Below are positions 15,186 through 20,105 of a DNA stretch of 64,000 nt, piece by piece. This stretch comes from Gammaproteobacteria bacterium (GTDB lineage: Bacteria > Pseudomonadota > Gammaproteobacteria > GCA-001735895): positions 1-64,000 of the forward strand of contig JAOTYD010000002.1 of NCBI GenBank assembly GCA_029862005.1, written 5' to 3'. How positions within the stretch are numbered: position 1 is the stretch's first letter; every line of letters begins with the position of its first letter. The translations under genes were made by a program, and so were the position numbers. Below the pieces are notes generated by a model. It searched no databases. It was not told the DNA's origin and saw only the letters and a program-made list of their open reading frames with translations.

Positions 15186-17219
15186 ATGAGTTCCAAACCC
15201 CGCCAGATCTTGGTCACCAGCGCGCTACCCTACGCCAATGGTCCGATCCATATCGGCCATATGCTCGAGTACGTGCAAACCGACATCTGGGCGCGCTTTC
15301 AAAAGCTGCGTGGACACGAATGCATTTACGTGTGCGCGGATGATGCGCACGGTACACCGATCATGCTGCGCGCACAGGCCGAGGGGACTACCCCGGAAGC
15401 CTTGATCGAACGTATGCACAAGGAACACCTGCAGGACTTTTCAGATTTCGGGGTTGCATTCGACAATTACTACAGCACCCACTCGGAAGAAAATCGTTTT
15501 TTCGCCGAGTATATCTATACCCAATTGCGAGATGCCGGGCATATTCGCACGCGCGTGATTTCACAGGCCTATGATCCGGTTGCGGAAATGTTTTTGCCGG
15601 ATCGATTCATCAAGGGCGACTGTCCAAACTGTGGAGCAGGCGGACAGTATGGTGATAATTGTGAGAACTGTGGTGCTACCTACGATCCCACCGAACTCAA
15701 GAATCCGGTATCGGTCGTCAGTGGCGAAACACCGGTCGAAAAGGATTCGGAACAATATTTCTTCAAGCTTGAAGATTTCGAGGAGATGCTCAAGAACTGG
15801 TTCGCCGAAGGGCACGTGCAAACCGAAATCGCCAACAAGATGAACGAATGGTTGGATGAGGGGCTCAAGGACTGGGACATTTCTCGCAATGCGCCTTACT
15901 GGGGCTTCGAGATACCGGATGCGCCGGGCAAGTATTTTTACGTCTGGCTGGACGCGCCGATCGGCTACATGGCCAGTTTCAAGAACTGGTGCGAAGCGAC
16001 CGGACACGACTTTGATTTCTACTGGAACGCCGACAGTACCACCGAGTTGTATCATTTCCTTGGCAAGGACATCGCCCGCTTTCATACGATGTTCTGGCCG
16101 GCGATGCTGCATGGTGCCGGTTTCCGCATGCCGAGCGCTGTCTACTGCCACGGCTTCCTGACCGTGGACGGCCAAAAGATGTCCAAGTCGCGCGGCACAT
16201 TCATCATGGCGCGCACCTATCTCGAGCACCTCAATCCGGAGTACCTGCGTTATTATTTTGCCGCTAAACTCGGGGCCGGGATCGACGATATCGATCTCAA
16301 TCTCGAGGATTTCACCACGCGCGTCAATTCCGACCTGGTGGGTAAACTGGTGAACATCGCGAGCCGCTGCGCGGGCTTCATTAATAAGCGTTTCGACAGC
16401 AAGCTGGTTAAAAAACTCAGCAGTGACGACTTGAGCCAGCAATTTATGTCGGCTGCAGAAACCATCGCCGAATACTACGAAAACCGCGAATTCGGCAAGG
16501 CCATGCGCGACATCATGGCGCTCGCCGATAAGGTCAATCAGTACATCGACGAAAAACAGCCCTGGGTGACCATCAAGGATCCCGATCGCGCGTCAGAGGT
16601 GCAGGATGTCTGCAGCATCGGCCTGAACTGTTTTCGCCAGTTAATCATACTTCTGAAACCCGTTTTACCCCGGCTGTCCGCCGAGGCCGAGGCATTCCTC
16701 AATGTCGAAAATCTCAACTGGGCAAATCTCGGCGATAACCTGCTGGACCATAGTATCAATCGTTTCAAGCCCCTGATGACCCGAATCGAACCGGTATTTA
16801 TCGAGCGCATGATCGAGGCCACCAAAGCGGATCTGGCAACCGAACAGAAAATACAGCAGGGTTCGGCAGATCCGTCGATCGAAGCCATTGCGCCGGAGAT
16901 CCATTATGACGATTTCGCACGGCTCGATTTCCGGATTGCAAGAATCGTCGCCGCGAAACGCGTCGACAAGTCCGACAAGTTGCTACAGCTCACGCTCGAT
17001 ATCGGCAGCGAAACCCGTAACGTGTTTGCCGGGCTTAGCAATGCCTATCAACCAGAGGACCTGGAAGGAAAGCTCACGGTGATGGTTGCCAACCTGGCGC
17101 CACGTAAAATGCGTTTTGGCATTTCCGAAGGCATGGTGCTGGCGGCCGGTTCCGGCGAGACCGAGCTTTACATCCTGAGCCCGGACTCGGGCGCCAAACC
17201 AGGAATGCGAGTCAGCTAG
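15186..17219 (+). CDS. metG: Methionyl-tRNA synthetase
   Basis: 677 aa, the full two-domain form. HIGH motif in [17 protein letters not shown] motif in [12 protein letters not shown], and a four-Cys zinc knuckle ([18 protein letters not shown]). The C-terminal 105 residues are the EMAPII/Trbp111-like tRNA-binding domain ([19 protein letters not shown]). Charges tRNA-Met for initiation and elongation. Its TAG is followed immediately by the TTG start of the serine protease gene, so the downstream pair is probably read through from metG. Confidence 0.96.
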
Positions 17220-18482
17220 TTGTTGTCACGTCTAATTGCCGTCAGTGTCTTGCTCGCGGGCCTGGTCGCGCCGCCCGTGGCCGCGATGGATTCCAAGAAA
17301 ATCTACCAGCTCAACCAGGATCGCGTGTTCCAGGTGCGGGTACTGAATCGCGAAACCGGGAAAAAATCGAGTATTGGATCGGGATTTATTGTCGGTGACG
17401 GCAGCCAGGTAGCCACAAATTACCATGTCATCGGCCAGGTTATCCTCGAACCCGAGCTGTTTTACATTTCATTCATCGGCAACGACGGGCAGGAAGGCGA
17501 GCTAAAACTGCTGGGGCTGGATGTCGCCCGCGACCTGGCGCTGCTGGGTGCTGAAAAGCCAATCGGTGAAGCCATCAAGATGAGCCCGCTGCCGCCACGA
17601 GGTGCGCCGATATACGCCATGGGTAATCCGCTGGATCTCGGACTGAGTATTGCAGTTGGCACCAACGGCGGCATTCTGAACCAGACCGACGATAGTCGCA
17701 TCCTTTTCTCGGGCAGTCTCAATCCCGGCATGAGCGGCGGTCCTACCTTCAACGACCAGGGCGAAGTCATCGGCATAAACGTTGCCACGGCACGCAATGA
17801 CATCAGCTTTATCGTACCGTCCCGCTTTTTGAACGAACTAATCGAACAATCGGCAACCGGGGCTTTCGATACAGAGACCAATCTGAAACGCGAGGTTGCG
17901 CAGCAGGTACTGGCTTACGAAACCAATTACATAGAACAACTGATGCAGGGAGACTGGCCTAAACTCGATCTGCGCCAGTTCAAGCTGCCGGGTATCATCT
18001 CGCCGACCGTACGGTGCTGGGATAACAGTGCCAAGCTGAGCGCCATTGCCCGCTACAAGCGCTATCAAATTCGCTGCGCTAATAAAAATCATGTTTATCT
18101 CGATGAAGACAACAAGTTCGTCGGCGAATTGATCTACGAGTATTTCTGGCTTGAATCGAAAGATCTCAACCCGATCCAGTTTTATAATCTCTACGAAAAC
18201 CTGAACAAGGATCAAATCGACTCGAAAATCGATCGGGATATCGTCAGCAACTTTAATTGCCAGACCTGGTTCGTTGAAGTGGCGTCGCAGGAATTGAAAA
18301 GTAATCTGTGCCGGCGCGAGTACGTCGAATACAAGGGCATGAGCGATGTCCTTTTCACCGCGGCGCTGACTGGACACCGCAACAAGGGATTTTTTATTAC
18401 CCTGATCATGACAGGCGTCGATTACAAATCGACCTTACCGCTGATTAAAAGATTCCTGGAGCAAACCGAATGGAAGCCCTGA
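17220..18482 (+). CDS. Secreted trypsin-like (S1C) serine protease with unknown C-terminal domain
   Basis: 420 aa, start TTG directly after the metG stop. The signal peptide is residues 1-22 (LIAVSVLLAGLVAPPVAAMD). The protease domain covers about 25-220 with the full triad: His in TNYHVIG, Asp in VARDLALLG, Ser in NPGMSGGPTF. There is no PDZ domain, unlike DegP or DegS. Residues about 225-420 are unassigned and have four cysteines in two pairs, suggesting disulfides in the periplasm. It overlaps the FHA gene by 13 bp, so the two are likely a functional pair. Substrate unknown. Confidence 0.8.
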   Translation: MLSRLIAVSVLLAGLVAPPVAAMDSKKIYQLNQDRVFQVRVLNRETGKKSSIGSGFIVGDGSQVATNYHVIGQVILEPELFYISFIGNDGQEGELKLLGLDVARDLALLGAEKPIGEAIKMSPLPPRGAPIYAMGNPLDLGLSIAVGTNGGILNQTDDSRILFSGSLNPGMSGGPTFNDQGEVIGINVATARNDISFIVPSRFLNELIEQSATGAFDTETNLKREVAQQVLAYETNYIEQLMQGDWPKLDLRQFKLPGIISPTVRCWDNSAKLSAIARYKRYQIRCANKNHVYLDEDNKFVGELIYEYFWLESKDLNPIQFYNLYENLNKDQIDSKIDRDIVSNFNCQTWFVEVASQELKSNLCRREYVEYKGMSDVLFTAALTGHRNKGFFITLIMTGVDYKSTLPLIKRFLEQTEWKP

Positions 18483-19426
18483 TACTCGAAATCAGCACCC
18501 GTGGATTACACCGCTACGAGCAAATCAACAGCGAGGTGACAACGATCGGGCGCGCGCTGGATAACGACATTATCCTCTCGGATCCAACCGTTGCACCACA
18601 CCACCTGAAGATAATTTGCTGCGGCGAAAGCTCGCTCGAGCTGGTCAACCTGACCGAGGTAAATCCAACCCGTGTCGACAAACGGCAGGTAGACTCACTG
18701 GTAACCGAGAAGCTACCCCTGAACATTGAACTCGGTCGTGTTCAGATGCAATTGCTGTCGCGCGACCAAGCGGTTTCCGCGACTCGACCCCTGCCCGGCA
18801 AGAGTCGGCGCAGCCAACTTTTCGGGCATGCCTACTGGGCGGTAATTCTCGTGTTGACTTGCCTTTTTATTGGCGGTCTGGAGTTCTTTCTCAATTCCTA
18901 TATCACCTTTAAATGGAGTGAAATGTTCAAATACGTGTTGCGGGAGAACGTACTGACCATTGGCGGTTTCGTGCTCGCGCTATCGATACTGGAACGCCTG
19001 TTGGTCAATCGATGGGAAATCAAGCAACTGGTGACTTCGGTATGCCTGGTGTACCTGCTTTATTATTTCATGACGATCTTTGCCAGCGAACTGGGCTACC
19101 TGTTCTCCGCGGACTGGCCGCAAACGGTATTCCGGTTTGGCTGGCACCTGCTGATCATTCCCGCTGCGGTTGCACTTTACCTGATCCATATTTCACATTT
19201 AAAACACAGCCGAAGCATCATACTGGCGATCCTGATTGCCAGCCCTATCGCGCTACCCTCGATCCTGCAAAGCCCCGAGGTGCGCGCCATGCTGGATGAT
19301 TTCAGTTCGGCAGCCAGGTACCAGAACAACCTCAGTTCGCTAAACTGGCACCTGAAAAAAACTATCGCTGTCGAGCACTTCATCGAGCAGGCCGGGAAAC
19401 TCGAACCTGGCGAATTCGCCGACTGA
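18470..19426 (+). CDS. FHA domain protein with C-terminal membrane domain
   Basis: 318 aa. Residues about 1-95 form a cytoplasmic FHA domain, the phosphothreonine reader, with GRALDNDIILSDPTVAPHHL giving the Gly-Arg, Ser-type and His positions of the fold. From about 120 to 270 there are five or six hydrophobic helices, then a short cytosolic or periplasmic tail. No Ser/Thr kinase is adjacent. The 13-bp overlap with the periplasmic protease gene suggests a membrane complex in which a cytosolic signal and a periplasmic protease meet; this is inference. It precedes rnfA by 97 bp. Confidence 0.78.
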   Translation: MEALILEISTRGLHRYEQINSEVTTIGRALDNDIILSDPTVAPHHLKIICCGESSLELVNLTEVNPTRVDKRQVDSLVTEKLPLNIELGRVQMQLLSRDQAVSATRPLPGKSRRSQLFGHAYWAVILVLTCLFIGGLEFFLNSYITFKWSEMFKYVLRENVLTIGGFVLALSILERLLVNRWEIKQLVTSVCLVYLLYYFMTIFASELGYLFSADWPQTVFRFGWHLLIIPAAVALYLIHISHLKHSRSIILAILIASPIALPSILQSPEVRAMLDDFSSAARYQNNLSSLNWHLKKTIAVEHFIEQAGKLEPGEFAD

Positions 19427-19523: not shown

Positions 19524-20105
19524 ATGTCAGGATACCTGTTACTGCTAATCGGCACCGTGTTTGTCAATAACATCGTGTTAGTGAAATTCCTCGGACTTTG
19601 TCCGTTCATGGGCGTCTCACGCAAGGTGGAAACGGCGATCGGTATGAGTGCCGCGACAACTTTTGTACTGACGTTATCGGCCGTGATGAGTTATCTGATC
19701 AACAGCTGGATCCTGGCACCGCTGGGCCTCGAGTACCTGCGCACGATCGGCTTCATTATCGCAATTGCCGCTGTCGTCAATTTCACCGAAATGGTCGTGC
19801 ACAAAACCAGTCCCCTGCTGTACAACGTGCTCGGCATTTTTTTACCCCTGATAACCACGAACTGCGCGGTGCTGGGCGTAGCGCTGATTAACGTCCAGGA
19901 ACAGAATAGTTTCCTCGAATCGGTAATCTTCGGTTTTGGCGCAGCGCTTGGATTTTCGCTGGTATTGATATTATTTGCCGCCATGCGCGAGCGCATCAAT
20001 GTTGCCGACGTACCAGTACCTTTCAGGGGTTCGGCGATAGGACTGGTTACCGCCGGACTCATGTCGCTGGCTTTCATGGGGCTCAGCGGATTGGTTAAGG
20101 CTTAA
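19524..20105 (+). CDS. rnfA: Rnf complex subunit A
   Basis: 193 aa membrane protein, six helices, same family as RnfE and NqrE/D. Signature near the N-terminus [20 protein letters not shown] and, in the second half-repeat, [14 protein letters not shown]; each carries a conserved Cys, which in Rnf/NQR proteins binds a membrane 2Fe cluster together with RnfE. Rnf couples electron flow between ferredoxin and NAD to Na+ or H+ movement; in gammaproteobacteria the related Rsx complex also resets SoxR. First gene of a complete rnfABCDGE operon. Confidence 0.95.

Follow-up and report, generated by a model that had tools for sequence, protein, structure and literature searches.

The window, a 64,000-nucleotide stretch of gammaproteobacterial DNA, carries overlapping genes for a predicted periplasmic serine protease (P) and an FHA-domain membrane protein (F), and no separated pair turned up in the samples searched, which reach across deep divergence. 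We propose, with confidence that approaches but does not reach an even call, that P and F are obligate partners in an inner-membrane protease complex with a detachable cytosolic FHA input from threonine phosphorylation. A complex with a phospho-reading input is suggested by the stable pairing of the genes, a constant core, a shared predicted compartment, and loss of the FHA domain in one family, f150. We infer the physical complex, the tail of F as its docking site, the direction of the signal and the substrate, and with them a signalling role for the pair.

Gene arrangement and local context

The features of the two genes are collected in Table 1. The TTG start codon of P abuts the metG stop codon at 17217-17219, and rnfA starts at 19524, 97 bp after F. 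The original prediction of a 13-bp overlap and of a P start placed directly at the metG stop agrees with the ORF coordinates. The ATG of F consists of the last base of a Glu codon of P joined to the TG of the TGG codon for Trp418.

Table 1. Features of the P and F genes and their products in the window.
Feature	Coordinates	Strand	Extent	Basis or remark
P	17220..18482	+	420 aa, TTG start	ORF listing
P signal peptide			residues ~1-22	read by eye
P protease domain			residues ~36-211	
P C-terminal domain	17862..18479	+	residues ~215-420	without family or PDB sequence match
P/F gene overlap	18470..18482	+	13 bp	
F	18470..19426	+	318 aa, ATG start	ORF listing
F FHA domain			residues 1-100	predicted cytosolic; Pfam, fold Z 15.9
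F five helices			residues ~121-266	family hydropathy and AF2 model
F periplasmic tail			residues 267-318	predicted from hydropathy/charge
F tail core	19295..19345	+	residues 276-292	[DE]F-x5-Y-x3-L

The pair is flanked by metG, mrp and rnf in the window's genus, and it had been described as an insertion that interrupts a common metG-rnf order. Eighteen related genomes were asked and rnfA was found in 15; in 6 of these 15, all from families other than the window's, rnfA directly follows a metG match with no pair between them. Since metG and rnfA adjoin in several other families, the pair occupies, in the window's genus, a site between two genes that are neighbours elsewhere. The description is supported to that extent, but metG was not seen next to rnfA in the six own-family members asked that lack a close pair (G012 and G031-G035; the contig of G012 begins 492 bp before rnfA, which limits its check). 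Likewise, "inserted between metG and rnfA" is accurate for the local site but does not carry over to other lineages, where the pair sits elsewhere; in one genome (G076) metG adjoins rnfA and the pair is present at another place. One member of the window's genus (G011:C35:18012-20167; L042, L097) has only a divergent pair, with a P about 30% identical, and it does not lie between metG and rnfA. This pair may be a replacement or a paralogue.

P and F occur together across deep divergence

The original prediction was staked on the two genes co-occurring elsewhere, and they clearly do. Named genomes were scanned with two P motifs, which yielded at least 584 stretches encoding a relative, other proteases possibly included, and the best 80 were kept as P relatives. 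F lies directly downstream, overlapping the P stop codon, in 78 of these best 80 of at least 584; in the other two the contig ends 28 and 47 bp after P. One of the 78 pairs (L136) has its F cut by a contig end. Records carrying the pair include Thiothrix, Leucothrix, Cocleimonas, Chromatiaceae MAGs, the Olavius algarvensis Gamma 3 symbiont, Porticoccaceae, Rheinheimera, Cardiobacteriaceae and six Candidatus Omnitrophota; the pair spans many families of Gammaproteobacteria, plus single records titled with other phyla.

Broader samples gave the same picture. Among 95 relatives, F was matched in 30 genomes and near-full-length P in 31, the shorter P matches being to the protease domain of other proteases. 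G028 alone accounts for the difference between these counts: its contig stops 50 bp beyond the final codon of P. In G006 the two genes lie on separate contigs, the genomes of G007 and G022 are 62-66% complete, and neither P nor F was found in G012, which is 96% complete. In an even sample of the class, the P C-terminal domain occurs in 24 of 369 genomes. The F profile matched 158 of the 369, with the FHA part alone in most of the matches listed; among those listed, the 21 genomes with a match reaching into or through the helices all have P adjoining. Of the remaining three P genomes among the 24, G184 and G340 are cut by a contig end and G189 has an F without the FHA domain. In a sample of the phylum, P was found in 19 of 398 genomes and F stands beside it in every one. 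The most divergent P members seen (L196 in G451, L195 in G633 and L194 in G514) score 298-346 bits against the P profile and may be early branches; two of them lie outside the class, and F still follows P.

The overlap itself is a conserved feature. In 77 of 78 relatives the F start is an NTG placed on a TGG (Trp) codon of P, in the F frame, and the overlap in these 77 measures 13 bp in 61, 10 bp in 10, 16 bp in 3, 22 bp in 2 and 25 bp in 1. Upstream of the F start, 56 of the 77 have a Shine-Dalgarno-like motif (GGAG, GAGG or AGGA), a count made without a chance control. Trp418 is invariant in 79 of 79 aligned P sequences, and a catalytic or structural role for it was set aside because its TGG carries the F start in 77 of 78. 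The Trp is absent where F starts elsewhere (L072, L206, L207 and L093-L095), and the divergent members L091 and L093-L095 have a 4-bp overlap and no Trp there. The exception is L177, which retains the Trp even though its F begins in a different frame, so the position of the F start explains the invariance mostly but not wholly.

The two proteins also share a history. In quick, unrooted trees of 78 rows, P and F gave 40 and 36 strong splits, respectively, of which 30 are common, with one conflict each way, and their patristic distances correlate at r 0.96; 500 shuffles gave at most 0.15. The six Omnitrophota rows (L149, L151, L153, L159, L161 and L163) make up one side of a branch in each tree. 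Their grouping among proteobacterial rows in both cases suggests that the pair was transferred between phyla as a unit. The pair of L175, a record titled Klebsiella pneumoniae, groups with that of the gammaproteobacterium L158, and the pair of L126, titled Aquificaceae, groups with that of Leucothrix L127; these two records are probably mislabelled or stem from mixed bins. For the mutual information between the two proteins, 155 pairs were filtered to 121 non-redundant ones (Neff 89). The highest values between proteins join P78, Arg366 and Tyr368 of P, placed by their residue letters as the computed numbers run 4-5 lower, with FHA positions and look like a signature of the FHA-less family.

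The neighbours of the pair, of which only metG, mrp and rnf were identified by search, vary by clade and often lie on the opposite strand; the pair itself is constant. As for a third partner gene, no neighbour cluster found within about 6 kb reaches more than 16 of 78 loci, and the most frequent ones, at 16 loci each, follow clade. A mobile-element reading was rejected, as P had no match in 72,556 plasmid records at E ≤ 1e-20. F had no match in 50,697 phage records at E ≤ 1e-3.

P is a predicted DegS-like protease with a distinct C-terminal domain

P is predicted to be a secreted, periplasmic, trypsin-like serine protease of the S1C/DegS-like kind. Pfam Trypsin_2 matches residues 53-186 (E 5.7e-21), the active-site motif is GxSGG, and P combines the trypsin-like fold with the His-Asp-Ser triad, as S1C (HtrA) peptidases do. 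The triad is complete, as claimed from the outset, with His69, Asp105 and Ser172 invariant in 79 of 79 aligned sequences. In the AlphaFold2 model (mean pLDDT 90.6) the protease domain aligns with DegS/HtrA structures at Z ~26. The best Foldseek match is the S1C-NTF2 part of RsgI9 (7sjy; E 6.9e-17 over 327 columns). Its overall rmsd of 17 makes it a safe match only for the protease part, and the 189 residues that align with RsgI9 at Z 25.1 (VIA) are about the size of that domain.

One or more C-terminal PDZ domains are typical of S1C (HtrA) peptidases, though not universal. P gave no Pfam PDZ match at E ≤ 1, so at the sequence level the absence of PDZ that had been noted stands, and so does the description of the C-terminal domain as unassigned and Cys-containing: the domain has no Pfam or PDB sequence match and holds four cysteines (Cys266, Cys286, Cys347 and Cys364) that are invariant in 79 of 79 aligned sequences. 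The window's member matches no Pfam family at E ≤ 0.1, the other 50 members give scattered weak Pfam matches of one or two members each, and a PDB profile search returned a best match of only E 0.84. As the four cysteines lie on predicted strands, the model suggests two disulfides in this domain.

No NCBIfam model reaches its cut-off for P or F. For P, the DegS equivalog TIGR02038 scored 39.3 bits against a cut-off of 422.95 and the MarP-type NF033740 scored 36.7 bits against 250. A defence-system reading of P was dropped, since the PADLOC matches (RT-Protease_XI, LmuA and PDC-M35A) are to the protease domain only.

F is predicted to link a cytosolic FHA domain to a periplasmic tail

F matches FHA PF00498 (E 7.3e-09; 36.4 bits, against a gathering score of 20.7) and, above the curated cut-off, Yop-YscD_cpl PF16697 (E 9.3e-10). 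Five hydrophobic segments appear in the family-averaged hydropathy profile, and the AF2 model (mean pLDDT 87.5) places helices at 121-142, 149-179, 184-212, 216-240 and 246-266. Family means of Lys/Arg versus Asp/Glu are 2.4 v 1.0 and 2.3 v 0.05 in the loops on the FHA side, and 1.6 v 2.3 and 0.17 v 1.3 in those on the opposite side. Five helices, with the Lys/Arg-rich loops on the FHA side, predict from sequence and model a cytosolic FHA domain and a periplasmic C-terminal tail.

The core of the tail is as conserved as the FHA domain. This core (residues 276-292, chosen after the conservation profile had been seen) carries 1.80 bits per column and the FHA domain 1.81, compared with 1.07-1.28 for the helices and 1.31 for the whole tail; the cytosolic loop 179-189 is also well conserved (1.65 bits), which counts against our preferred reading. 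Across the 121 non-redundant pairs, position 278 is aromatic in 108, position 284 is aromatic in 105, and position 288 is Leu, Ile, Val or Met in 115. Model confidence in the tail is below that of most of the protein, with blocks from residue 271 on at pLDDT 53-83.

The phosphothreonine-contact signature of FHA domains, which we take to be Arg, Ser, His and Asn-Gly, corresponds here to Arg28, Ser42, His45, Asn65 and Gly66. The FHA region is present in 76 of 78 aligned F proteins, in which Arg28 is found in 74, Ser42 in 48, His45 in 75, Asn65 in 75 and Gly66 in 55 of the 78. That the region and its Arg28, His45 and Asn65 are so widely kept indicates selection on the FHA domain. Two contact positions are altered in the window's genus: the window's F reads Arg28, Ala42, His45, Asn65 and Pro66, retaining three of the five, which counts against a phospho-input. 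Hence, of the originally predicted cytosolic phosphothreonine reader coupled to several membrane helices, the topology is supported by hydropathy, charge and model. As for phosphothreonine reading, it is plausible across the family, and Ala42 and Asn-Pro weaken the case for the F of the window itself.

FHA loss in family f150 and its relation to kinases

A Pkinase (PF00069) match turned up in 25 of the 27 genomes queried. It is present in 20 of 22 pair-bearing genomes, the two without it both belonging to f150, and also in all five pair-less genomes (G012, G032, G042, G047 and G052), so kinases do not predict the pair.

In f150, which includes the Cardiobacteriaceae loci L150, L164 and L177 on the strength of matching contigs, positions or sequences, P is kept in 12 of 12 species and the helices and tail of F follow it in all 12. 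The FHA domain is absent in six (L197, L199, L204, L206, L207 and L072). In L206 and L207 the frame after P opens 30-36 bp downstream, with no overlap, and a Lys/Glu/Asn-rich N-terminal stretch replaces the FHA domain. FHA residues were read in five of the six FHA-retaining species, L201 being left out and those of L198 taken from its duplicate L090. The Arg is lost in three (L198, L200 and L202), L203 and L205 keep the Arg, His and Asn-Gly, and Ala occupies the Ser position in all five. These losses separate a constant core (P, helices and tail) from a detachable FHA domain.

A full-length Pkinase match was found in none of the 12 f150 genomes, some of which are only 72-89% complete: seven gave no match and five a partial one of 40-53 bits. 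For comparison, the window's genome has 12 Pkinase matches, the best at E 2e-57. The f150 pattern points to kinases as the reason for the FHA domain, by a link that is loose and drawn from one family. Within f150 a partial match does not track the FHA domain, as three FHA-less species have one, and G784 (L205) keeps the Arg, His and Asn-Gly without a Pkinase match. Outside f150, G240 has a degraded FHA domain (Arg28 to Ala) yet three Pkinase matches. The retention of most FHA contacts in L203 and L205 slightly lowers our confidence in the proposed complex and in the wider claim of an inside-out signalling protease.

Comparison with known systems

The protease resembles DegS, DegP and HtrA (MEROPS S1C) in fold (Yersinia pestis DegS 5jd8, Z 26.3, rmsd 2.3 over 186 residues), in the GxSGG motif and in being exported. 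It differs in having no PDZ match, a different, four-Cys C-terminal domain and a separate polytopic FHA partner. DegS is membrane-anchored, carries a PDZ domain and acts in the periplasm with an inner-membrane signalling protein, RseA, a single-pass anti-sigma factor that is its substrate. P and F recall this arrangement of a DegS-like periplasmic protease with an inner-membrane signalling protein; unlike RseA, F has five helices and an FHA domain, and Pfam and NCBIfam searches returned no anti-sigma family match.

The FHA fold of F is like that of GarA, OdhI and FhaA of actinobacteria (Z 15.3-15.9), which are not known to combine a membrane part of five helices with a partner gene for a protease. 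With the inner-ring protein SctD/YscD of type III secretion F shares the PF16697 cytoplasmic FHA-like domain, but it has five helices and a short tail, and its score against the SctD model TIGR02500 (15.6 bits) is far under the cut-off of 86.

RsgI9 of Clostridium thermocellum resembles P, by Foldseek, in having an S1C domain followed by another domain. It is described as part of a transmembrane signalling protein, a single chain whose periplasmic domain autocleaves (PMC12203970). P and F are two chains, that description makes no mention of FHA for RsgI9, and the match at rmsd 17 gives no firm pairing of the C-terminal domains. FHA and trypsin-like domains are joined in the FHA-FHA-trypsin fusion NP_811686.1 of Bacteroides thetaiotaomicron (PMC2605481); the fusion is one chain, whereas P and F are two genes whose products are split by the membrane. 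The parts of the pair are known; a description of the two-gene combination was not found in searches of the open-licence PMC literature.

Proposed mechanism and alternatives

In the mechanism that we propose, P would be exported and fold in the periplasm, and F would span the inner membrane, its FHA domain facing the cytosol and its C-terminal tail facing the periplasm. Through its conserved aromatic/leucine motif the tail would hold P, perhaps by the C-terminal domain of P, which occupies the position of PDZ in HtrA proteases. Docking of a Thr-phosphorylated cytosolic protein on the FHA domain would change F and so switch or position the attached protease; proteolysis in the periplasm would thereby be tied, from the inside out, to Ser/Thr kinases.

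The signal might instead run from outside to inside, with P cutting or releasing the periplasmic tail of F under envelope stress, much as a site-1 protease does, and the FHA domain relaying the event to a phosphorylated cytosolic partner. A protease fold nearest DegS/HtrA would suit this, as would a tail of lower model confidence around a conserved core. Against it, F has no anti-sigma family match, a substrate need not be encoded by an overlapping partner gene, and the FHA domain is lost while P and the tail stay, which is odd for a sole output; we regard such a sensor as unlikely. The same losses (six of 12 f150 species without the FHA domain and at least three more without its Arg, helices and tail in 12 of 12), together with the altered FHA domain of the window's F, would fit an F whose main task is to anchor, chaperone or inhibit P as a housekeeping quality-control protease, the FHA domain being a minor accessory adaptor. 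Selection on the FHA region (76 of 78 F proteins, with Arg28, His45 and Asn65 in 74-75 of 78) speaks against so small a part for it, and we think this account improbable.

Translational coupling could also explain the fixed overlap, with the F start inside P and a Shine-Dalgarno-like motif in 56 of 77 (again without a chance control), if P and F were merely co-expressed and made no physical contact. That is hard to square with a pair of which our samples, across deep divergence, showed no separated case, and with a conserved F tail that is predicted to share the periplasmic side with P, and we give it little credence. The phospho-gated complex remains our preferred reading. The wider claim, of a widespread inside-out signalling protease whose kinase-losing lineages shed the FHA reader and keep the protease complex, is possible, although we consider it doubtful.

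Significance

The well-known bacterial transmembrane proteolysis pathways run from the envelope to the cytosol. If our proposal is true, P and F would provide a route in the reverse direction, or else the usual direction under phospho-gating. The pair is widespread, conserved and testable: the FHA-less F of a family without full-length kinase matches offers a natural test, and P, the helices and the tail provide a constant core for purification. Such a route would serve many environmental and a few animal-associated bacteria.
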